Assembly: GCA_018401275.1 (NCBI GenBank)
Contig: JAGYKW010000001.1
Location: 614,001-678,000 of the forward strand
Direction of reading: 5' to 3'
Length of the DNA stretch: 64,000 nt
Origin: Nitriliruptoraceae bacterium
GTDB lineage: Bacteria; Actinomycetota; Nitriliruptoria; Nitriliruptorales; Nitriliruptoraceae
Part shown: positions 1 through 60,848 of the stretch, piece after piece
How the letters are laid out: every line of letters starts with the position of its first letter
Position numbering within the stretch: the stretch's first letter is position 1
The notes under the pieces: model-generated
What the model was told of the DNA's origin: nothing
Databases searched by the model: none
Seen by the model: only the letters and a program-made list of their open reading frames with translations
Translations under genes and position numbers: made by a program

Positions 1-1549
1 CGAGGCGCGCTGCGACCTCGAGGACCTCGCGGTACTCGGGCTGCTCGCGTGCGGCGCGCAGCTCCGCGGACTTCCCGAACGCCTCCTCGAGCGTCGGCTC
101 GATCCCCTGCACGGCGGGCGGCATCATCTTCGCGAGGTCGTCCCCCACCTTGAACGGCTGGTCGAGCACGCGCGCCGCATCCCGGATGCCGGACTTCGCC
201 TTGATGGTCCCGAACGTGACGATCTGCGCGACGTGGTCGGCGCCGTACCGGTCGGCCGCGTAGCGGATCATCTCGCCGCGTCGACGGTCGTCGAAGTCGA
301 TGTCGATGTCCGGCATCTGGATGCGCGCGGGGTTGAGGAAGCGCTCGAAGATCAGCCCGTGTCGGATCGGGTCGACGCGCGTGATGTCGGTGCAGAACGC
401 GACGACGGATCCCCCGGCCGATCCACGTCCTGGTCCGACCCGGATGCCGACGGAGCGCGCGTGACGGCAGAGGTCGGCGACGATGAGGAAGTAGGCGGGG
501 AAGCCCATCTGCTCGATGACGCCGAGCTCGTACTCGACGCGCTCGGCGACGGCGGTCGGCAGCGGACTGCCGTAGCGCTCGCGCGCGCCCTCGAGGACCA
601 TGGCGCGCAGGTGCTCGCCCTCGGTGCGCCCCTCGGGCACGGGGAACCGCGGGAGGAGGTCGAGGTCGAACTCGATGCGGGCGTCGCAGCGCTCGGCCAC
701 CTCGAGCGTCGCGTCGAGCGCGTGTCCGTGGTCAGGGAACGCTGCACGCATCTGCGCAGCGGTCTTGACGAAGAACTGGTCGGAGTCGAAGCGGAAGCGT
801 CCCGGGTCCGACAGCTTCGATCCGGTCTGGATGCACAGCAGCGCGTCGTGGGCGGCGACGTCCTCGGCGCTCGTGTAGTGCGTGTCGTTCGTGATGACGG
901 TGCGCAGGCCGAGCTCGCCGGCGAGCCGTTCGAGCATCGGCCACACGCGCCGCTGCTCAGGGATGCCATGGTCCTGCAGTTCGACGAGGTAGCGGTCCGC
1001 GCCGAGCAGGTCCCGGAAGCCGCCCATGACCCGGCGCGCCGCATCCTCGTCGCCGCGCAGCAGGTGCTGGTTCACCTCGGAGCCGAGGCATCCGGACAGC
1101 ACGATGAGTCCCTGATGGTGCTCGGAGAGCAGCTCCATGTCGATGCGCGGCTTGTACCAGTAGCCCTCGAGGTAGGCCCGGCTCGACAGCGTCATCAGGT
1201 TGCGGTAGCCCGTGCCGTCCTCGGCCAGCACGGTCAGGTGATGGGCGCGCTGCTTGCCGTCCGCACCACCGGTCTGCTGGTCGTGGCGTGAGCCGATGGC
1301 CTGATAGAGCTCGGAGCCGAGGATGGGGTTCAGCCCTCGTTCCCTCGCCGCACGGTGGAACTCGACGAGGCCGAACAGGACGCCGTGGTCGGTGATCGCC
1401 ACACCCGGCTGGCCGTCCTGCTGGACGGCATCGAGCAGGTCGTCGACCCGCGACGCCCCGTCGAGCATCGAGTACTCGGTGTGGACGTGGAGGTGGACGA
1501 ACCCGCGGCCGCCGGCGCTCGCCCCCCCGCCTCCCGCACCGGTGGACAT
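1..1549 (-). CDS. dnaE: DNA polymerase III alpha subunit (replicative), 5' part; runs off the left edge
   Basis: This is the catalytic subunit of the chromosomal replicase. The first 516 residues are visible on the minus strand from an ATG at 1549, and the rest lies beyond base 1. The PHP domain opens with FVHLHVHTEYSMLDG (residues 17-31), which keeps the metal-binding histidines, followed by VAITDHGVLFGLVEF. The polymerase palm shows PDIDIDF at residues 413-419, so the catalytic aspartates are D414 and D416. A Gly-rich stretch of about a dozen residues precedes the PHP domain. The gene lies downstream of the RluA-family synthase in a minus-strand run, an arrangement common in actinobacteria. 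A second, error-prone dnaE paralogue is at 28033-31635. Identity is secure; only the C-terminal parts (fingers, clamp-binding and OB domains) are out of view. Confidence 0.97.
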   Translation of the reverse strand, partial: MSTGAGGGGASAGGRGFVHLHVHTEYSMLDGASRVDDLLDAVQQDGQPGVAITDHGVLFGLVEFHRAARERGLNPILGSELYQAIGSRHDQQTGGADGKQRAHHLTVLAEDGTGYRNLMTLSSRAYLEGYWYKPRIDMELLSEHHQGLIVLSGCLGSEVNQHLLRGDEDAARRVMGGFRDLLGADRYLVELQDHGIPEQRRVWPMLERLAGELGLRTVITNDTHYTSAEDVAAHDALLCIQTGSKLSDPGRFRFDSDQFFVKTAAQMRAAFPDHGHALDATLEVAERCDARIEFDLDLLPRFPVPEGRTEGEHLRAMVLEGARERYGSPLPTAVAERVEYELGVIEQMGFPAYFLIVADLCRHARSVGIRVGPGRGSAGGSVVAFCTDITRVDPIRHGLIFERFLNPARIQMPDIDIDFDDRRRGEMIRYAADRYGADHVAQIVTFGTIKAKSGIRDAARVLDQPFKVGDDLAKMMPPAVQGIEPTLEEAFGKSAELRAAREQPEYREVLEVAARL

Positions 1550-1659
1550 GACGCTTCTGACCTCCGGACGGGTGGGACGACGAACCTAGCAGCGGCGTTC
1601 GACACGCCCCCCGAGGTCGGCCGTCGCGTCGGCCGCGTCGCTGCCTGCGGCGCGAGCGG

Positions 1660-25033: not shown

Positions 25034-25840
25034 TCAGCGGCCGCCGAAACGCGGTGTCCGGTCCTGCGCAGCGGCCGTCACGGCCTCGCTCACGTCCCCG
25101 CCGGCGAGCATCCGCAGCTGCAGCCGGCCCTCGGCGGCGAGCGCTCCATCCCGGGACGCACCGGAGGCCTCACGCACCAGCCGCGGCAGATGCTGCAGGA
25201 CCTGCGGACCGTCGGCCCAGCGCACGGCGAGCTCATGGCCCGCCGCGAGCGCATCATCCCCGGCGAGCCGGACCTCGGCGAGCCCGATCGCGATGGCCTC
25301 ATCCGCATCGACCCGACGAGCCGAGAGCATGAGCTCGGTCGCCCGTCCCTGGCCGACGAGTCGCGGCAGGCGCCAGCTCGCCCCGAGGTCGGGCACGAGC
25401 CCCCAGCGCGGCTCCATCACGGCGAGGCTCGCACGCTCCGTCACGCCGCGGACGTGGCAGGCGATCGCCAGCTGCAGACCCGCCCCGAGGCAGACCCCGT
25501 CGATCGCGGCGAGGACCGGCACGTCGAGCTCCTCGAACGCCGTGAACACGGCCTGCACCCGTGCGACGTCGTCGAGCGTGAGCGGCGTCATGGTCAGCGC
25601 GGCGAGGTCCGCGAGGTCGAGGCCGGCGGACAGATGCTGCCCCCTGCCTGCGACGACGACAGCACCGATGGCGCCCGAGCCGACGAGCTCCGCGGCCGAG
25701 CGCGCATGCTCGACCAGACCGTCGAGCACCGCTCGGTCCATCGCGTTGCGCTTCGCGGGTCGCTCGATCACGACGTGTGCGACCCGCTCGACGATGGTCA
25801 TGCTCGTGACCGCGACGTCGACCCCGTTGCTCATCGTCAT
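25034..25840 (-). CDS. Enoyl-CoA hydratase/isomerase (crotonase) family protein
   Basis: A 268-residue crotonase-fold protein acting on an acyl-CoA thioester. The N-terminal part includes HVVIERPAKRNAMDRAVLDG, the oxyanion-hole segments are HLSAGLDLADL and IDGVCLGAGLQLAIACHVRG, and EPRWGLVPDLGASWRLPRL follows. The placement of acidic residues in EPRWGLVPDLG is more like isomerase-type members than the classical two-glutamate hydratases, so the exact reaction is uncertain. Two ATGs (25840 and 25834) both lie after a G-rich Shine-Dalgarno-like run; I used the first. It stands alone, without other beta-oxidation genes. Confidence 0.88.
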   Translation of the reverse strand: MTMSNGVDVAVTSMTIVERVAHVVIERPAKRNAMDRAVLDGLVEHARSAAELVGSGAIGAVVVAGRGQHLSAGLDLADLAALTMTPLTLDDVARVQAVFTAFEELDVPVLAAIDGVCLGAGLQLAIACHVRGVTERASLAVMEPRWGLVPDLGASWRLPRLVGQGRATELMLSARRVDADEAIAIGLAEVRLAGDDALAAGHELAVRWADGPQVLQHLPRLVREASGASRDGALAAEGRLQLRMLAGGDVSEAVTAAAQDRTPRFGGR

Positions 25841-26035
25841 CCCCCCGCTCCTCGGCGCGCTCCCACCAGGCGCACCCACCCGGCACGGCCGCTGGGCGCG
25901 CCCACCGGGCGCACCGACCCGCGCTGCTGCTGCAGCCTACGAGTGGCGCGCACCGTTACGCTGCGCCCACCACGGCACCACTCACCACTCGCCACTCACC
26001 ACCGCTGCTCCCCGCCGGCACGATGGAGTCCTTCA

Positions 26036-26755
26036 GTGATCGATCGCGAATGGGTCACGCTCGTCGACCCCCAGGACGACCATCGTCGTTACACGTTCGA
26101 TGTGTCGTTCCTCCTCTCGGACTACACGTGCATCTTCGGACGTGGCTGCAAGGGCATCACCGGGCAGCCGGTCCTCGGTTGCTGCGCCCACGGCGCGTAC
26201 CTGAACGAGGACGATGATGGGGCGGAGCTCGAGCGCATCGTCCGCGAGGATCTCGACGCCGAGACGATGCAGTTCCACCGCAGCGCGCTTCGTAAGGGCG
26301 TGCTGGAGCGCGACGACGAGGACGAGGTCCACACCCGTGTCGTCGAGGGCGGCTGCATCTTCGCCAACCGTGAAGGCTTCGCCGCCGGCGAGGGCTGCGC
26401 CCTGCACCACCTGGCGGTACGCCGTGGTGAGGACCCGATGACGTACAAGCCGACGGTGTGCTGGCAGGTCCCGCTGCACCGCACCATCGACGAGAAGGTC
26501 GGCAACGACGGCCGCACCGTCGAGGTGCACTCGATCGCCGCCTTCGAGCGTGGCGACTGGGGCGAGGGCGGCGCGGACTTCCGCTGGTGGTGCTTCGACG
26601 ACGAGACCGCGTTCATCTCCGACCGTCCGCTCTACCGCACGATGGAGCGCGAGCTGCGCACCATGGTGGGCGACGAGGTCTACGGCGAGCTCGCCGGCTA
26701 CCTCGACCAGCGTGTCGACGCTGCGCCGCGCATCGGCTTCCTACCCATCGTCTGA
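26036..26755 (+). CDS. Cysteine-rich protein resembling the YkgJ/DUF3109 metal-cluster group
   Basis: A 239-residue protein I do not recognise with certainty. Cysteines occur in short clusters: CIFGRGCKGI, GCCAHGAYL, EGGCIFANREG, GEGCALHHLA and TVCWQVPLH, the last preceded by the YKP context. The spacing resembles YkgJ-like and DUF3109 proteins, thought to bind zinc or an iron-sulfur cluster through about eight cysteines. No substrate is known. The GTG at 26036 has GGAG eight bases upstream. A TACGCT -10 box lies at 25957-25962. The end overlaps the convergent dinB by 15 bases. Confidence 0.8.
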   Translation: MIDREWVTLVDPQDDHRRYTFDVSFLLSDYTCIFGRGCKGITGQPVLGCCAHGAYLNEDDDGAELERIVREDLDAETMQFHRSALRKGVLERDDEDEVHTRVVEGGCIFANREGFAAGEGCALHHLAVRRGEDPMTYKPTVCWQVPLHRTIDEKVGNDGRTVEVHSIAAFERGDWGEGGADFRWWCFDDETAFISDRPLYRTMERELRTMVGDEVYGELAGYLDQRVDAAPRIGFLPIV

Positions 26756-28036
26756 ACCGCTGACGCCGGAGGCGCTGCTGTCAGCGTCGCTGTGCGACGC
26801 GGCCTCCGGATGCTCCTCATCGTCGAGGAGCGAGGCGAACGACACCGACGGGGCCCCGTAGCGCGCGACGATCGCGTCCGCCGCCCGGTCGAGCGCCTCC
26901 CAGCGTTCCCCGGGGACGTGGCCGTCGGCCTCCGTCGCCTCGCCCTCGTCGTCGAGCAGCGCGAGCTGGGTGACGGCATCGGGCGTGCCGAGCCCGCTCA
27001 GCCGGAAGCCGACCAGCCGTACCCGTGACCGTTCGAGGCGGAGCGAGCGCAGCAGCGCCTGCCCCGTCGCGACCAGCTCGTGCGTCCGGTCGGTCGGCCG
27101 CGGGAGCGTCTGCGACCGGGTCATGTCCCGATGGTCGGCGAGCCTGACCTTCACCGTCACCGTGCGTGCCGCGAGGCCCTGCGCACGGAGCCGTCGCGTC
27201 ACATCCGTCGCGAGCCGCTGCAGGCGGCGCTCGAGCACGACCGGATCGTCGACGTCCTCATCGAACGTCGTCTCCGCCGACACCGAACGGGCCTCCTGCG
27301 CCGGCTCGACACCGCGCGGATCGATGCCATGGGCGAGCGCATGGAGCTGCCCCCCGAGCGACTCCCCCACCACCCGACGCAGCAGCCGGACATCGGTGTC
27401 CGCGACGTCACCGATGGTCGTGAGGCCGTGCTCGACGAGGCGCTCGGTGGTGCGCGGACCCGCGCCCCACAGCAGCTGCACGGGCAGCGGCCGCAGGCGC
27501 GTGGTGACCTCGGCCGCCGGCCAGTGCAGCAGCCCGTCGGGCTTCGCGAGGCCCGACAGCAGCTTCGCGATCGACTTCGTCGGCCCGACCCCGACCGAGC
27601 ACGGCAGCCCGAGCTCGGAGCGGACGCGGATGCGGATCGCCGCGCCGATCGCCGGCGGATCCCCGAAGAGCTGCACCGCGCCACCGACGTCGAGGAACGC
27701 CTCGTCGAGCGACAGCGGCTCCACGAGTGGCGTCACGTCACGCAGCACGGCCATCAGCTGGCCGGAGACCTCGCGGTAGCGCGCGAAGCGGGGCGGCACC
27801 ACGATCAGGCCAGGACAGAGACGACGTGCGCGGACCATCGGCATCGCGCTGCGCACCCCGAACGCTCGCGCCTCGTAGGACGCCGCAGCGACGACGCCAC
27901 GTCCCGACGGCGAGCCGACCGCGACGGGCGCACCGGTGAGCGCAGGATCGTCGAGCTGCTCGACGGAGGCGTAGAAGGCGTCCATGTCGACGTGCAGGAT
28001 CGGCTCGGGATGCGACGTTCGGGTCGGTCCGCTCAC
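26741..28036 (-). CDS. dinB: Y-family DNA polymerase IV (DinB), catalytic residues intact
   Basis: A 431-residue translesion polymerase. The catalytic acids are present: D17 in VDMDAFYASVEQ and D111/E112 in PLSLDEAFLDVGG. Helix-hairpin-helix and little-finger regions follow (LLWGAGPRTTERLVEHGLTT; SVSAETTFDEDVDDPVVLE). TQLALLDDE near residue 357 resembles a beta-clamp-binding motif, and a Ser/Asp-rich tail ends the protein. It overlaps dnaE2 (GTGA) and is the last gene of the SOS cassette. The intact active site argues for a true Pol IV rather than the inactive ImuB that usually accompanies DnaE2. Confidence 0.93.
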   Translation of the reverse strand: MSGPTRTSHPEPILHVDMDAFYASVEQLDDPALTGAPVAVGSPSGRGVVAAASYEARAFGVRSAMPMVRARRLCPGLIVVPPRFARYREVSGQLMAVLRDVTPLVEPLSLDEAFLDVGGAVQLFGDPPAIGAAIRIRVRSELGLPCSVGVGPTKSIAKLLSGLAKPDGLLHWPAAEVTTRLRPLPVQLLWGAGPRTTERLVEHGLTTIGDVADTDVRLLRRVVGESLGGQLHALAHGIDPRGVEPAQEARSVSAETTFDEDVDDPVVLERRLQRLATDVTRRLRAQGLAARTVTVKVRLADHRDMTRSQTLPRPTDRTHELVATGQALLRSLRLERSRVRLVGFRLSGLGTPDAVTQLALLDDEGEATEADGHVPGERWEALDRAADAIVARYGAPSVSFASLLDDEEHPEAASHSDADSSASGVSGSDDG

Positions 28037-31000
28037 CGGGCACTCCTCCCCGATCGGTCACGCGCGCCCGACCCGTCCCGTGCCGCGACCGCCTCATGCG
28101 GCGCCGGCGTGCCGCGCTCCTGCAGCGCCTGCGACAGCACACCATCCTGCCATGCCCGCCACAGCCGGGTCAGGTCCCACGCCCGCCGCCCGATCAGCGT
28201 CGCACCCCGCTGGCCGCGACGCGACACCACCCCCTCGGCGACCACCAGCTCCGAGGCGCGCACGACCCACGCACAGTCCGGCAGCGCCCGTGTGAAGAAC
28301 GTGACCTGCACCTGCCCGGCCCGGTCGTCCAGGGTGAGGAACAGCACCCGGTCGCCGGAACGTTGCGGGGGTGACTGCAGCGCGACCCGCACACCTGCCA
28401 CGCGCACCCGCTGGCCCGCGGGCAGGCCACGGAAGGTCGTGGCGTCGACCACCCCGAGCTCGTGCAGCAGCGGCGTGTAGAAGCTCATCACGTGCGCGGT
28501 GAGGTCCACCCCGGTCGCGCGCAGCTCCCCGCGGACCCGCGCGGCCCGCGACTCCAGCGGGAGCCCGCTCGGCGCGACGGCGAGCTCGAGCGCCAGCGTG
28601 CCCTGCGTCGGCGCGGCGGCGCCACCCTCCGACGACGCGCGGCGCTGCCCACGGGGCGACCGGCGGCCACGCAGCGACCAGGCCTCCTCCACGCGCAGGC
28701 GCAGCTCGCGCCGATCGTTCGGACCACCCGGCTGACCGACTCCGGCGAGCCGGTCGAGCGCTCCCGCCGCAGCCAGCGCGAGCACCGCGTCGCGCCCGAC
28801 GCCCGCGCGGTCACGCAGCTCGATCACGCGCATGAACGGGCGCAGCGCGAGGATCCGGTCGACCTCCGCATGACCGAGCTCGGCGACACCCGAGAGCCCA
28901 AGCCGCACCGCCCAGCGTCGCCCGTCACCACGCCGTCCCGCATCACGACCGGTCGGCGGCAGCGGATCCGGCTCCCCGACCGGCCACGACCAACCGGCGG
29001 GCAGCAGCGGCACCGGGTCACGGTCCTGCTCCGCGGCCGAGCGTGCCGCGGTCAGTCCGAGCAGTGGATCGGACGTCGCAGCGTCGACGACCGTGACGTC
29101 CGCGTCACGACCCGAGCGCAGCACGTCGGGTCCGAGGACCGGCACGCCGAACAGGCGGCACTCCTCGACGAGCATGCGGCGCGGATACATGCCGGGGTCG
29201 TGGGTGATGAGTCCCGCCATGAACTCGGGGAACAGGTGCGCCTTGAGGAACGCCGAGCGTTCGGTGGGCACCGCGAACGCGGCCGCATGCGCCTTGCAGA
29301 ACCCGAACGCGGCGAACGAGGCGACGTCCTCGAACACGGCGTCGACGGCGTCGCGATCCAGGCCACGCTCGCGCGCACGTTCCTGCACCAGCCGCCGCAC
29401 GATGCGCTGCCCGTCCGCGTCACCGAGCCGGCGCCGCAGCAGGTCCGCCTCCGACGCGTCACACCCGGTCAGCGCCGAGAGCACCCCCATGACCTGCTCG
29501 TGGTAGACGATCACGCCGAACGTCTCGGCGAGCACCGGCTCGAGCTCGGGCAGCGCGTAGCGGACCTCCTCCTCGCCGTGCCGGCGCGCCACGTACGGGG
29601 TGATCATGTCGGCGCGCATCGGTCCGGGACGGAACAGCGAGATCTCCGCGACCAGGTCACCGAAGCGTGACGGCTGCAGCCGCCCGAGCAGCTCGCGCTG
29701 ACCGGGTGACTCGATCTGGAACATGCCGACGGAGTGGGTCGAGCGGATCAGCGCATAGGTCGCCGGGTCGTCGTGGGCGACCATGCCGAGCGCGAAGCTC
29801 CCGCCGGTCCAGCCCGGGACGTCCGCCTCGTCCGCGCCCCGGGTCGGCTCGCGCGGGACCGCATCCTCGCGCGCGATCCCGTTGACGAGGTCGAGGCAGT
29901 GGCGCATCGCGGAGAGCATGCGCACCCCGAGCACGTCGAGCTTGAGCAGACCGAGCGCGGCGACGTCGTCCTTGTCGAACTGGCTGACCGGGTAGCCGTG
30001 CGCACTGCGCTGCACGGGCGTGAGGTCGAGCAGCGCCGCATCACCCAGCAGGATCCCGCACGGATGCATCGCGAGATGACGCGGCATCCCGTCGACGCGC
30101 GCGACGAGCTCGAGCAGCGTCCCGAGCCGGCCGGCATCGAGACGGCTCCCGGCGAGCTCCGGCAGCCGCTCGAGCGCGCGCCCGACGTCGCGCGCACGCA
30201 GGTGCGGCAACTGCCGCGCGACGTGGTCGATCTCCTCGGGCGGCAGGCCGAGCGCCGCACCGACACCGCGCACGGCCGAGCGCGCCTGGAGGGTCTCGAA
30301 CATCCCGACGGTCGCCACGCGGTGCTCGCCGTAGCGGGCGATGACGAGGTCGTAGACCTCCTCGCGCCGGTGCGACTCGACGTCGAGGTCGATGTCGGGC
30401 AGCTCGTCGCGGTAGGGGTTCATGAAGCGCTCGAAGGCGAGCCCGTTCGCGACCGGATCGACGTCGCTGATCCCGAGCGCGAAGCACACGAGCGAGCCGG
30501 CGGCCGAGCCGCGGCAGGCGACGAGGATCCCGGCGGCGTGCACGTCGGTGACGACGTCGGCGACCGCGAGGAACAGGTCGTGCACGCCCGCATCATCGAT
30601 GGCGGCCAGCTCCCGGTCGAGACGCGCCTGCACCTCCTCCGCCGGGTCGCCGAGCCGGCGCACGAGTCCGGCCCGGCTGCGAGCGGCGAGTGCGGCCGCC
30701 GCCTGCGCGACGCTGCGCCCGGTCAGCCGCGGAGCACGCACCTCGCCGAGGACGAACGGTGCACTGCAGCGCTCAGCGAGGTCCGCAGCCGCAGCGAGCA
30801 GATCGGGGCGCTCATGGAACCGGCGCGCCTGCTCGGCAGGGTCGGTGAACCAGGCTGCGGACGTGGTCCTGCCGAGGTTGCGCGTCCCCAGCGGCACGCC
30901 CAGCCGCATGCAGCGCAGCACGTCAGCGACGACGACGTCCTCGGGCCGCTCGTGGCGGACGTCGTTGACGGCGACGGCGCTGATCCCGCTGCGGCGCGCG

Positions 31001-31635
31001 AGCTCGAGCGTGCGAGCGATGCGGACGTCGTCGCCCGGCTCGTCGGGATCGGGACGACCGTGGACGCGACGGCCACCGGGCGCGACGCGATGGTCGCGCA
31101 CCCCGAGCACCGTGCCCTCGGTGCCGAAGCGCTCGCGCCAGCGTTCGAGCTCGGCCGCCGCCGCATCGCGCGCGCCGCGTGCGAGCAGCCGGCCGACGGG
31201 CGAGTCGACGCCGAGCAGCGCGATGACGTGCCCGGTCGCGACACCGTCCAGTCCGTCCGCGTCGAGCAGCGGCGCGCCGCGCCCGTCCGGGCCATGCGCA
31301 TGGGCGCGTGAGACCGCGCGGCACAGCGCCGCATACCCGTCCGGTCCTCGGGCGATCAGGGTGACGCGCGGCGCCTCGGACACGCGATCGGACCGCGGGT
31401 CGACGGCGAGTGCGAGGTCCACCCCCACGATCGGGACGACTCCGGCATCCGCAGCGGCACGCACGAAGCGGACCGCTCCCGAGAGCCCGTCACGGTCGGT
31501 GAGCGCGACGTGCGACATGCCCGCCTCAGCGGCCGCCGTCGCGAGCCGCTCCGGCGCGATCGTCGCGTCACGCAGGGAGAAGGTCGAGCCGGCGCGCAGG
31601 TGGGCGAACCGCGTGGACCCTGCAGCGGCGCCCAT
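28033..31635 (-). CDS. dnaE2: Error-prone DNA polymerase III alpha subunit DnaE2 (ImuC)
   Basis: A 1200-residue C-family polymerase for damage-induced mutagenesis. The palm motif PDIDLDVESHRREEV holds the catalytic aspartates, and CRGSAAGSLVCFALGISDVD, MHPCGILLGD and MFQIESPGQRELLGRLQPSRF are typical of the family. The N-terminal PHP domain has lost metal ligands: FAHLRAGSTFS and TDRDG replace the HxH and DH motifs seen in dnaE1 at 1549. The ATG at 31635 shares one base with the DUF6504 stop. Induction through the LexA box at 31975-31990 is likely. Confidence 0.95.
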   Translation of the reverse strand: MGAAAGSTRFAHLRAGSTFSLRDATIAPERLATAAAEAGMSHVALTDRDGLSGAVRFVRAAADAGVVPIVGVDLALAVDPRSDRVSEAPRVTLIARGPDGYAALCRAVSRAHAHGPDGRGAPLLDADGLDGVATGHVIALLGVDSPVGRLLARGARDAAAAELERWRERFGTEGTVLGVRDHRVAPGGRRVHGRPDPDEPGDDVRIARTLELARRSGISAVAVNDVRHERPEDVVVADVLRCMRLGVPLGTRNLGRTTSAAWFTDPAEQARRFHERPDLLAAAADLAERCSAPFVLGEVRAPRLTGRSVAQAAAALAARSRAGLVRRLGDPAEEVQARLDRELAAIDDAGVHDLFLAVADVVTDVHAAGILVACRGSAAGSLVCFALGISDVDPVANGLAFERFMNPYRDELPDIDLDVESHRREEVYDLVIARYGEHRVATVGMFETLQARSAVRGVGAALGLPPEEIDHVARQLPHLRARDVGRALERLPELAGSRLDAGRLGTLLELVARVDGMPRHLAMHPCGILLGDAALLDLTPVQRSAHGYPVSQFDKDDVAALGLLKLDVLGVRMLSAMRHCLDLVNGIAREDAVPREPTRGADEADVPGWTGGSFALGMVAHDDPATYALIRSTHSVGMFQIESPGQRELLGRLQPSRFGDLVAEISLFRPGPMRADMITPYVARRHGEEEVRYALPELEPVLAETFGVIVYHEQVMGVLSALTGCDASEADLLRRRLGDADGQRIVRRLVQERARERGLDRDAVDAVFEDVASFAAFGFCKAHAAAFAVPTERSAFLKAHLFPEFMAGLITHDPGMYPRRMLVEECRLFGVPVLGPDVLRSGRDADVTVVDAATSDPLLGLTAARSAAEQDRDPVPLLPAGWSWPVGEPDPLPPTGRDAGRRGDGRRWAVRLGLSGVAELGHAEVDRILALRPFMRVIELRDRAGVGRDAVLALAAAGALDRLAGVGQPGGPNDRRELRLRVEEAWSLRGRRSPRGQRRASSEGGAAAPTQGTLALELAVAPSGLPLESRAARVRGELRATGVDLTAHVMSFYTPLLHELGVVDATTFRGLPAGQRVRVAGVRVALQSPPQRSGDRVLFLTLDDRAGQVQVTFFTRALPDCAWVVRASELVVAEGVVSRRGQRGATLIGRRAWDLTRLWRAWQDGVLSQALQERGTPAPHEAVAARDGSGARDRSGRSAR

Positions 31636-31904
31636 CAGTCCCAGACGCGGTCGAGGCGCCAGCCGGTCCCGCGCCGCACGAGCTCGTGGATGCCCCGACC
31701 CCCGTCGGTGGCGACCTCGACACGCCAGAGGTCGGTGCGCTCGACCTCGAGGACCGCACCTCCCGAACGGTGCCACCAGCCGGCGTCCTCATGCCAGTGA
31801 CCGAGCACCTGCAGGACCTGATGCCGGCGACCGCGCCAGCAGAACGCGACGGGTGCGTCCCCGTCGACCTCGACCTCGTCGAGCACCTCCCGGTACCGCT
31901 TCAT
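31635..31904 (-). CDS. DUF6504 family protein
   Basis: An 89-residue basic protein with several conserved aromatic positions (FCWRGRRHQVLQVLGHW, GWWHRSGG, GWRLDRVWD at the end). Proteins of this type are found in actinobacteria beside dinB or dnaE2 and their function is unknown. Here it is the first gene after the LexA box and overlaps dnaE2 by one base, so it is probably co-induced by DNA damage. Its place resembles that of imuA in other imu cassettes, but I see no RecA-like motifs. Confidence 0.8.
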   Translation of the reverse strand: MKRYREVLDEVEVDGDAPVAFCWRGRRHQVLQVLGHWHEDAGWWHRSGGAVLEVERTDLWRVEVATDGGRGIHELVRRGTGWRLDRVWD

Positions 31905-31974
31905 CCTGCCTCCGGACCGGGCATCGCATCGCGCGTCTCACCGCGCAGCGCACCGGACGTGAACGAGCACCCAA

Positions 31975-31990
31975 TCGAACAGATGTTCGG
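31975..31990 (-). promoter_or_regulatory. LexA (SOS) box controlling DUF6504-dnaE2-dinB
   Basis: The plus strand reads TCGAAC-AGAT-GTTCGG, which matches the actinobacterial and Bacillus-type SOS consensus TCGAAC-N4-GTTCGA at every half-site base but the last. It lies 71 bases upstream of the first gene of the cassette. No other site with GAAC-N4-GTTC was noticed in the window. Confidence 0.85.
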
Positions 31991-32016
31991 ATGCTACGCG
32001 TCCACTGGGACAGGCG

Positions 32017-32970
32017 TCAACGCGGGCCCGTACGGAGGCGTGCGGCGAGGTCCGCGGCCACCACGTCGAGGCTCGCTCCCCCCCTGACCGCCCCGTTCGC
32101 CCGGCCGAGCATGCCGGTCGAGAGCCCCCCGACCAGCGGCCGCAGCGCCGCCTCGAGTCCCGGCGTCTCGGAGAGCACCGTGCTGCGGACCACCGGAGCG
32201 GGGACGAACGCGGGGAAGAACCGCAGGTCGTCCGCCAGGGGCTTGAGCCCCGAGCGCCAGGCGAGCCCGTCGGTCGCGTGGCTGAGCCCCGCGATGCAGT
32301 CGCCAGCGAGCACGCCGAGCACCGCCTCCGCCGGATCGGCGGCGAGGAACGGACGGTCACGGCGCACGCTGTAGGCGCTGAGCAGGGCGGCCAGCCCATC
32401 GGGGCGACGGCCGAACTCGGTGTCGACGCACAGCGACAGCTCCGGTCGCTCGGAGAGCCGCAGCGACAGGTCGGACAGCGTGCGCAGGTCAGCGTCGATC
32501 CCCGGCGGTCCGGCCACGAAGAACGCGAACGTCGCGTTCACCGGTGGCTCCTCCACGCCCGCTCCGAACGCCGGCACGAGCCAGGTCAGCCCGCGCGCGC
32601 GGTCCGCCTCGGCGAGCACCTCGAGACCGGCGGCAGGGTCGGCCGGCGGATCGGCGCGACCCAGTCGCGTGAGCCACTCCTCCCCGCTGTAGGCGACCGC
32701 GAGCTCGACGTCACCGAGCTCGATGGCCTGCCGCACGCTGCGTCCGTCGGCGAGCACGACCGCCTCAGCAACGATGCCCGCGTCCTCGAGCAGCAGGACG
32801 ATGGTGCGGGCCAGCAGCTGCGCCTCGCCCTCCGGACCGGTGGCGACGCGCAGCGCAGGCACAGGGACGTCCGCGTCGTCGGCGCAGGCGGCGAGCACCG
32901 GCGCGAGCAGCGCGACGCACGCCAGCGCCGCGATGGCATGGCGTCCACGGGCGTTCGGCGATCGGGTCAC
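32017..32970 (-). CDS. Substrate-binding lipoprotein, glycine betaine/choline (OpuAC/OsmF-like) type
   Basis: A 317-residue secreted lipoprotein. With the GTG at 32970 as start, the signal peptide ends in the lipobox VLAAC at residue 29. The mature part looks like an OpuAC-family binding protein: LRVATGPEGEAQLLARTIVL, a segment ending AIELGDVELAVAYSGEEWL, and SLCVDTEFGRRPDGLAALLS in the second lobe. The ligand is probably a quaternary amine or related osmolyte, but the aromatic cage residues are not obvious. No permease or ATPase gene is adjacent, so it is an orphan. An in-frame GTG lies two codons upstream as an alternative start. The divergent lipoprotein gene begins 72 bases away. Confidence 0.8.
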   Translation of the reverse strand: MTRSPNARGRHAIAALACVALLAPVLAACADDADVPVPALRVATGPEGEAQLLARTIVLLLEDAGIVAEAVVLADGRSVRQAIELGDVELAVAYSGEEWLTRLGRADPPADPAAGLEVLAEADRARGLTWLVPAFGAGVEEPPVNATFAFFVAGPPGIDADLRTLSDLSLRLSERPELSLCVDTEFGRRPDGLAALLSAYSVRRDRPFLAADPAEAVLGVLAGDCIAGLSHATDGLAWRSGLKPLADDLRFFPAFVPAPVVRSTVLSETPGLEAALRPLVGGLSTGMLGRANGAVRGGASLDVVAADLAARLRTGPR

Positions 32971-59287: not shown

Positions 59288-60848
59288 TGCCGCCCGCCGC
59301 CGCAGCAGCACCCGCACCGGCCGCCCCCGCACCAGCACCCGCACCCGCACCGGCACCGGCGCCTGTCGCGACCAAGGCCAAGGACAAGGCCGCAGCACCC
59401 CGCGCCGACGGTCACCGTCGTGAGCGCACGAGCGACCACGACGTCGACGTCATCGTCATCGGTGGCGGCACGGGCGGCTACTCGACCGCCCTGCGTGCCG
59501 CCCAGCTCGGCCTGGAGGTCGCACTCGTCGAGCGCGCGAAGGTCGGCGGGACCTGCCTGCACTGGGGCTGCATCCCGTCGAAGGCGCTGCTCCAGACCGC
59601 TGAGGTCGCCGAGTCCGCGCACGAGGCGGGCGACTTCGGCGTCGCGCTCGACGCCGCGAGCATCCGCATCGACGTGGCCAAGATGAACGCGCACAAGGAC
59701 GGCGTCGTCGACAGGATGTGGAAGGGGCTCCAGGGAGCGCTCGCGAAGCGCAAGGTCGACGTCATCCACGGCGACGCCCACCTGACCTCGGACGACACGG
59801 TGGAGATCGCGCTGGCCGATGGTGGATCGCGCACCCTGCGCGCCCCGTCGATCGTCATCGCGACCGGCTCGAAGGTCCGTGAGCTGCCGTTCGCACCGTT
59901 CGACCACAAGCGCATCATCTCCTCCGACGACGCGCTCTACCTCGACAAGCTGCCGAAGAAGGCCATCATCGTCGGTTCCGGCGCGGTCGGGATGGAGTTC
60001 GCGACCGCCTGGAGCGCGTTCGACGTCGAGGTCACGATCGTCGAGCTCGCCGACCGACTGCTGCCGCTCGAGGATGCCGACAGCTCGAAGGAGATCGAAC
60101 GCGCGTTCCGCAAGCGTGGCGTCACCGCACACACGGGCGTGAAGCTGACCGGTGTCGAGGCGACCGCACGCTCGGTGTCGGCGACCATCGAGACGTCGAA
60201 GGGTGAGGAGACGCTGAAGGCCGATCTCATCCTCGTCGCGATCGGACGTGCACCGGTGACCGAGGGCGTCGCGCTCGACACGGCCGGTGTCGAGGTCGAC
60301 CCGCGCGGCTTCGTCGTCATCGACGACCACTGCCGCACGAACGTGCGCGGCATCTGGGCCGTCGGTGACGTCATCGACACGCTCGGCCTCGCACACGCGT
60401 CCTTCGCGGAGGGGATGCTCGTCGCCGATCAGCTCGGCGGACTGGACGTCACCCCCATCGACTACCTCGGTGTGCCACGCGTCGTGTACTCGCATCCGGA
60501 GGTCGCGTCGGTGGGCTACCGCGAGCAGCAGGCCAAGGACGCCGGCATGGAGGTCGTCATCGAGAAGTACCCGTTCCAGGCGCTCGGGCGCGCGGCGATG
60601 GCGAACCAGACCGGCATGGTCAAGATCGTGGCCGAGAAGGATGACTCGCAGCCCGGGTCCGCCGGACGCGTGCTCGGCATCCACATCGTGGGCCGCGCGC
60701 GACCGACCTGATCGCCGAGGCGCAGCTGATCACCAACTGGGAGGCGCTGCCGATGGAGGTCGCGCAGCTCATCCACGCCCACCCGTCGTTCAGCGAGGCC
60801 ATCGGCGAGGCGCATCTCGCGCTCGCCGGTCGTGCCCTGCACGGCTGA
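59012..60848 (+). CDS. lpdA: Dihydrolipoyl dehydrogenase (E3) with N-terminal lipoyl domain; frame broken twice as sequenced
   Basis: Flavin disulfide reductase that reoxidises lipoyl groups of 2-oxoacid dehydrogenases. Residues 1-80 form a lipoyl domain (K42 in [14 protein letters not shown]). An Ala-Pro linker and the E3 core follow, with [19 protein letters not shown] and the redox cysteines in [16 protein letters not shown]. The lipoyl part is in one frame, the core (from about 59281) in a second, and the tail with [16 protein letters not shown], including the catalytic histidine, in a third, ending at 60848. One base appears lost near 59283-59300 and one near 60695 in GTGGGCCGCG. Restoring both gives 612 residues. 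Sequence error or recent mutation are both possible. Confidence 0.85.

Follow-up and report, generated by a model that had tools for sequence, protein, structure and literature searches.

The cassette at positions 26741-31990 of the window (the whole 64-kb stretch of DNA that we analysed) probably encodes an SOS mutasome without ImuA, of the DnaE2B-PolY-[ImuB-C]-RecA type. From the sequence evidence laid out below, we put the probability of this reading at roughly 75%. Judged by profile and residue comparisons, the two halves of ImuB are separate genes here: an active-looking Y-family polymerase (PolY) and DUF6504, which corresponds to the ImuB-C domain. This module type was already described in 2026 (PMC12926913), and the cassette is a further case of it. 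Within the accessible portions of the mutasome literature, we did not find the identity of DUF6504, the pattern in which LexA boxes follow individual genes, or the exclusion between the module and ImuA in the class of the host (henceforth the host class).

Gene layout of the cassette

The host genome spans 1.73 Mb on 39 contigs and is 96.3% complete; the window covers positions 614001-678000 of contig C1. A search with the cassette DnaE2 placed its closest relatives in the Nitriliruptoraceae/Nitriliruptorales, Actinomycetota. Reading along the minus strand, a sigma-70-like promoter leads into a LexA box, followed by DUF6504, dnaE2 and PolY. The features are as follows:

31991-32020, minus strand: sigma-70-like promoter TTGACG-18-TAGCAT, directly next to the LexA box
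31975-31990, no strand: LexA-type (SOS) box TCGAACAGATGTTCGG, pattern CGAACN4GTTCG, with boxes at the corresponding position ahead of DUF6504 in relatives
31635-31904, minus strand: DUF6504 gene, 89 amino acids (PF20114, 41.0 bits; cut-off 24.2)
28033-31635, minus strand: dnaE2, starting with ATG at 31635 (PF07733, PF17657, PF02811)
26741-28036, minus strand: PolY, a DinB-like Y-family polymerase, starting with GTG at 28036 (PF00817, 174.7 bits)
26951-26968, minus strand: clamp-binding-like motif QLALLD, PolY residues 357-362
26819-26908, minus strand: RecA-NT-like motif ERWEALDRAADAIVARYGAPSVSFASLLDD, PolY residues 377-406, from hhalign against RecA N-termini

The preliminary description of this DNA had reported a LexA-type box ahead of DUF6504, dnaE2 and a Y-family polymerase, with all three genes overlapping. 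The coordinates and the Pfam and NCBIfam matches agree with this account (PolY scores 397.5 bits against NCBIfam PRK03858, cut-off 367), and both overlaps are present. The DUF6504 stop and the dnaE2 ATG have one base in common (TGATG), and the dnaE2 stop and the PolY GTG overlap by four bases (GTGA). The 5' neighbour of the cassette is a gene for a glycine-betaine-type substrate-binding protein.

DUF6504 as a standalone ImuB-C domain

We compared DUF6504 with ImuB proteins. The DUF6504 model (PF20114) matched residues 443-519 of the 524 residues of Azospirillum ImuB at 25.5 bits (cut-off 24.2). Matches in the ImuB of Rhizobium, Agrobacterium and Sinorhizobium fell in the same C-terminal place at 17.7-19.7 bits, below the cut-off, and two betaproteobacterial and four actinobacterial ImuB proteins tested gave no match. 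When 52 standalone DUF6504 sequences were aligned with four alphaproteobacterial ImuB proteins using hhalign, P was 6.7e-6 and the alignment reached the last column. With all 13 ImuB proteins taken together, P was 2.2e-5, and 0 of 100 column shuffles were equally good. The match was weak against the betaproteobacterial (P 0.021) and the actinobacterial (P 0.06) ImuB proteins taken separately.

A cassette of D. ficus has been published as lexA-imuY-imuB-C-dnaE2 (PMC8072749). Its annotation reads LexA, hypothetical protein, 'DUF6504 family protein' and DnaE, and the small protein published as ImuB-C scores 31.4 bits to the DUF6504 model. On these profile matches, we conclude that DUF6504 is a standalone ImuB-C domain. 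The earlier placement of DUF6504 as an accessory gene stands, but the Pfam and hhalign matches to ImuB C-termini now give that gene its identity. The earlier view that an intact DinB replaces ImuB needs amending: PolY does look intact, but the halves of ImuB exist as separate genes, PolY and DUF6504. We also considered DUF6504 as a new accessory fold and rejected this on the Pfam and hhalign results together with the D. ficus ImuB-C match.

The structural model of DUF6504 is all-beta, with nine strands and no helix (pLDDT 92.6). Its invariant residues are W23, R24, W37, W44, R61, W82 and R86. A Foldseek search of the model against the PDB gave no match at E<=0.001; ImuB-C is described as a barrel that has no near counterpart in the PDB (PMC12926913). 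Sequence searches of the PDB returned chance-level matches only for DUF6504, and Pol IV and REV1 chains only for one Azospirillum ImuB. A tblastn search of plasmids with the cassette DUF6504 gave no match, and a text search of the accessible literature did not find the name 'DUF6504'.

Distribution and gene order in Actinomycetota

Of 396 genomes sampled across Actinomycetota, 122 contain DUF6504. Its identification as ImuB-C ties an unexplained Pfam family to a named mutasome part and makes predicted SOS mutagenesis genes of many anonymous DUF6504 annotations. We examined the neighbouring genes in 111 of the 122 genomes (31 in the host class and 80 elsewhere); the other 11, which have weak matches, were left out of the search for neighbouring DnaE and PolY genes. 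DUF6504 and a second DnaE were located on one contig in 73 genomes (20 in the host class, 53 elsewhere). In every one of the 73, DnaE was encoded downstream of DUF6504 and on its strand; the two genes were within 3 kb of each other in 58.

Where all three genes were on one contig, the order DUF6504, DnaE2, PolY on one strand held in 16 of 16 host-class genomes and in 37 of 42 other genomes. Among the five exceptions, three genomes of family f46 (G131, G164 and G185) have PolY on the opposite strand after DnaE2, G306 is divergent and G101 has PolY upstream. In twelve genomes that lack a second DnaE, PolY comes directly after DUF6504, forming a PolY/ImuB-C pair. Some genomes, for example Nonomuraea, carry DUF6504-DnaE2 with no PolY nearby, and in many host-class genomes PolY is 2-13 kb off. 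In the host class, PolY is usually the sole Y-family polymerase. The layout of the module is widespread in Actinomycetota and is neither unique nor unpublished. Recent mobility of the cassette was considered and rejected because in many Actinomycetota genomes the locus remains close to dnaE1.

LexA boxes at the locus and in relatives

The pattern CGAACN4GTTCG has one copy in the window, where shuffles predict 0.03. The promoter that abuts it is the one promoter-like site found in positions 26500-32300 (0.0 expected in shuffles). The cassette box TCGAACAGATGTTCGG is one spacer base away from the recA box of the same genome (TCGAACAGGTGTTCGG). The lexA gene of the host genome has four boxes around its start, and both LexA domains were detected in its product. 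The SOS-type control claimed earlier is thus supported, at the level of sequence, by a box that sits at the promoter and is near-identical to that of recA, and the gene unit is probably switched on by DNA damage.

The 12-base LexA core also occurs behind a YebC-like gene in the host genome, where the gene that follows is presumably ruvC. The core is found at 18 places in the host genome, several of them in unlikely positions, and therefore the core alone is no proof of LexA control. A relaxed pattern allowing 2 mismatches gave 346 matches and was uninformative; the cassette box was not among the matches listed.

At 55 loci, whose shared ancestry means that box counts are not independent events, 58 of 68 LexA boxes lay inside the upstream intervals (-70 to +250 bases) of DUF6504, dnaE2 or PolY; these intervals make up 5.7% of the bases and were, like the 250-base limit between near and far genes, chosen after a first look at the boxes in relatives. 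Neither this count nor the split-gene counts include loci in which a gene start was cut off. When dnaE2 was >250 bases behind DUF6504, a separate box served it at every locus (9 of 9), compared with 0 of 16 for adjacent dnaE2. PolY genes that were apart from dnaE2 had their own box in 11 of 21 cases, compared with 0 of 20 for adjacent PolY. The ten separate PolYs without a box are at L098, L100, L108, L109, L114, L119, L121, L164, L165 and L167. Two loci, L096 and L097, were scored as without a DUF6504 box through a misjudged start; in both, boxes sit some 50-75 bases ahead of the DUF6504 match. L097 is the locus with the DUF6504-dnaE2 pair of Salsipaludibacter albus AS10, a cultured relative.

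Because boxes follow the genes when these are split, the compact one-box operon is one end of a range, and elsewhere the same parts are separate LexA-linked units. The split-gene comparison gives regulatory support for DUF6504, DnaE2 and often PolY as one LexA-linked module. It also bears on whether the cassette box is a chance match, with the cassette outside LexA control, as the 18 copies of the core and their sometimes unlikely places might suggest. We regard this as very improbable, given the near-identity to the recA box, the contact with the sole promoter-like site of the region, the concentration of boxes in 5.7% of the bases at the 55 loci and the way in which boxes track split genes one by one.

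Absence of ImuA and ImuB

The preliminary description had noted that imuA was missing. Using an alignment of nine actinobacterial ImuA rows, we obtained 0 ImuA matches in the host genome (96% complete), which extends that observation beyond the cassette. ImuB gave no match in the same 96% complete genome either, and the only Y-family match in the whole host genome is the intact PolY. A separate imuA/imuB pair was thus sought genome-wide and not found; with the genome 96% complete, missing imuAB genes could still exist in the unassembled part. RecA is present in the host genome.

With the same search, 5 of the 39 genomes of the host class were positive for ImuA (four of family f4, plus G205), and all five also have diverged ImuB-like Y-family genes. 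DUF6504 is present in 31 of the 39 genomes, none of them with ImuA, and all five ImuA genomes are without a standalone DUF6504. Three genomes have neither. Within the host class, the module and ImuA are mutually exclusive; since the ImuA genomes are related to each other, this represents about two independent cases, not five.

Catalytic residues and motifs of PolY and DnaE2

We inspected the active sites of both polymerases. PolY retains D17, D19, the steric-gate residue Y22, D111 and E112, and an alignment of 24 cassette PolYs shows all five unchanged in every sequence. Earlier claims for D17, D111 and E112 and for a clamp-binding-like QLALLD were both borne out, and the Q357 and L358 of this motif are invariant in the same 24 sequences.

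PolY residues 377-406 (ERWEALDRAADAIVARYGAPSVSFASLLDD) resemble the N-terminus of the host genome's RecA (KALDVALANIEKQFGKGSLMRLGDD). Profile-profile comparison with hhalign gave P 3.8e-5 and a score of 21.6, where the best of 200 column shuffles reached 14.2. Compared with a single RecA sequence the match was weak, and 21 of 2000 shuffles were equally good. The PolY model has a helix predicted at residues 377-393, inside an otherwise low-confidence tail. On the profile comparison, PolY carries a RecA-NT-like motif, and from this motif we infer that RecA probably substitutes for ImuA.

The host genome has two DnaE matches. DnaE2 contains PDIDLD and KLDVLG, which we take to be the motifs that hold the C-family catalytic aspartates. 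The first of its PHP metal motifs is degenerate, reading HLRAG where DnaE1 of the same genome has HLHVH. Because the catalytic residues and motifs are intact in PolY and DnaE2, both look like competent polymerases.

Proposed working of the cassette and alternatives

In the mechanism that we propose, LexA bound to the box abutting the -10 element would block the promoter. Upon damage, RecA filaments would promote LexA cleavage and so induce the cassette; recA and lexA have the same kind of box. The three genes would be expressed from a single mRNA, and the observed overlaps suggest that their translation starts are coupled. PolY would serve as the hub, contacting the clamp through QLALLD and RecA through the RecA-NT-like helix, and RecA would thus occupy ImuA's place through PolY. 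DUF6504, as a detached ImuB-C barrel, may link PolY/RecA with the DnaE2 PHP domain, by analogy with the contact in an M. tuberculosis ImuB-C/DnaE2 model (PMC12926913). DnaE2, and possibly PolY too (unlike in ImuB systems), would then copy past the lesion with errors.

The genes might instead be co-induced only: PolY would then work as a normal Pol IV, and DUF6504-DnaE2 would be another error-prone polymerase acting on its own. PolY keeps all its catalytic residues and exceeds the Pol IV NCBIfam cut-off, DUF6504-DnaE2 exists without a near PolY in Nonomuraea, and many host-class genomes have PolY 2-13 kb distant. We nevertheless consider such independence unlikely: order and strand are conserved over the phylum, the starts overlap, the RecA-NT-like and clamp motifs are conserved in cassette PolYs, and models of the DnaE2B-PolY-[ImuB-C]-RecA complex have been published (PMC12926913). 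Also unlikely, in our view, is that DUF6504 recognises DNA damage and is not a protein bridge. That role was proposed for ImuB-C by Aravind 2013 (PMC3765255), and the invariant tryptophans and arginines (W23, R24, W37, W44, R61, W82, R86) would suit it, but they fit either role, and the M. tuberculosis model has ImuB-C on the DnaE2 PHP domain, where it would aid ImuA binding (PMC12926913).

PolY could also be a hub only, like ImuB, with an active site that is ancestral or used elsewhere and with synthesis unneeded in the mutasome. ImuB and Deinococcus ImuY do the hub job without catalytic residues (PMC8072749). Since PolY is usually the sole Y-family polymerase in the host class, it may retain a catalytic job outside the mutasome. 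We find the hub-only role somewhat doubtful, as the invariance of D17/D19/Y22/D111/E112 in 24 of 24 cassette PolYs argues for selection on PolY catalysis. Tentatively, as a possibility that we hold at less than even odds, we propose a two-polymerase mutasome: PolY and DnaE2 would act on one clamp, held by the ImuB-C protein and RecA, and both would synthesise in one bypass (for example, PolY inserting and DnaE2 extending). Such a machine would be an ancient actinobacterial equivalent of ImuA-ImuB-DnaE2, passed on by vertical descent, and its genes would tend to remain individually under LexA after rearrangement has moved them apart. A mutasome with two intact active sites makes it possible to ask directly whether catalysis by the Y-family subunit matters, which is impossible in ImuB systems.

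Comparison with known mutasomes

Eleven mutasome types have been proposed (PMC12926913, NAR 2026). The type consisting of DnaE2B, an active PolY, a standalone ImuB-C and RecA is reported there only in Actinobacteria, with Tessaracoccus lapidicaptus as the example. The cassette resembles this type in having a DnaE2 outside the ImuAB clade, an active-looking PolY with RecA-NT, a standalone ImuB-C and no ImuA/ImuB; the T. lapidicaptus example was compared by description only. It differs in what is reported: the accessible sections of that paper contain neither the name DUF6504 nor a LexA-box analysis of this type.

We built a 56-sequence DnaE2 tree, excluding sequences of <900 residues and one duplicate. 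It separated 11 ImuAB-associated DnaE2 from 40 cassette-type and 2 Streptomyces-type sequences (SH-aLRT 100 on each side), where 'cassette' denotes all actinobacterial DnaE2 relatives that belong to neither the ImuAB nor the Streptomyces plasmid set, including some on contigs too short to show neighbour genes. A smaller tree gave the same split with bootstrap 100/100, and D. ficus DnaE2 fell outside the actinobacterial group. The cassette DnaE2 groups with the Streptomyces type, apart from the ImuAB-associated DnaE2. This division appears to match the published DnaE2A/DnaE2B split (PMC12926913), the labels being compared by group, not row by row.

Several elements of the module have precedents. 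One study (PMC6511836) described the RecA-NT motif together with variants that lack ImuA, among them two active polymerases in Bacteroidetes. ImuB-C was named, and seen standalone beside DinB or DnaE2, in PMC3765255, and the ImuB clamp motif is required in mycobacteria (PMC10421592). The lexA-imuY-imuB-C-dnaE2 locus of Deinococcus deserti/ficus is likewise an SOS cassette with a split ImuB, DnaE2 and no imuA, and mutagenesis in D. deserti needs ImuY, DnaE2 and RecA (PMC8072749). However, D. ficus ImuY has 0 of the 5 catalytic positions tested, lexA is inside the operon, the gene order is different and the DnaE2 of D. ficus does not fall within the actinobacterial clade. The cassette was not found in a stretch of a D. 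deserti plasmid taken at guessed coordinates.

The ImuA-ImuB-DnaE2 mutasome of mycobacteria, Caulobacter and Pseudomonas has in common with the cassette a LexA-linked DnaE2, a Y-family hub with a clamp motif and an ImuB-C domain, whereas in that system the ImuB-C domain is part of an inactive ImuB, ImuA is present and DnaE2 belongs to another clade. The DnaE2 of the Streptomyces DnaE2-scDinB2 pair and that of the cassette share a clade, but the Y-family partner in the Streptomyces pair is inactive and ImuB-C is missing there (PMC6511836). DinB (DNA polymerase IV) has catalytic residues and NCBIfam models in common with PolY; the cassette PolY differs from it by a C-terminal RecA-NT-like extension and by its conserved pairing with dnaE2 and DUF6504.

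Position of the two DnaE genes

The replicative dnaE1 lies on the same strand as the DnaE2 gene of the cassette, 29 kb downstream.

Window 1-1585 (contig C1 of the window's genome, G000:C1:613834-614616), minus strand: dnaE1 (replicative)

The same arrangement, with a spacing of 29-83 kb, was found in 23 of the 24 genomes in which both DnaE genes are on one contig and at most 120 kb apart, a count that the extent of the contigs biases towards short distances. G118 would add another case, at about 66 kb, provided that its one contig is circular and the interval runs through the origin. In five genomes with both genes on one contig, the arrangement is absent or far off.

Gene pairs with DUF6504

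PolY directly follows DUF6504 where the second DnaE is missing in 12 genomes of family f19.

Genomes of f19 with DUF6504-PolY and without a second DnaE
G015, G044, G079, G122, G176, G187
G198, G209, G262, G293, G303, G339

DnaE2 and DUF6504 overlap in Nonomuraea gerenzanensis (locus L226, 7467-11917) downstream of a LexA-type box, and no PolY match was detected in the 16 kb covered; this pair resembles the published DnaE2-ImuB-C type.

Other features of the window and of class relatives

Two further features were recorded in the window.

60097-60108: second GAACN4GTTC core, GAACGCGCGTTC
25190-26755, plus strand: frame convergent with PolY, its last 15 bases inside the end of the PolY gene

Inspection by eye of the context of the second core (L143) revealed no SOS gene. 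The convergent frame has a weak DUF3109 match, below the cut-off, in its C-terminal part.

RecA matches in many Nitriliruptoria relatives (RecA loci L209-L222) are broken into pieces, at about 1-70, 63-198 and 194-262, and sit inside stop-free frames of 600-1500 codons. Such a pattern would be expected from inteins, with as many as two insertion sites. RecA in the window's genome is unbroken, with 348 residues.
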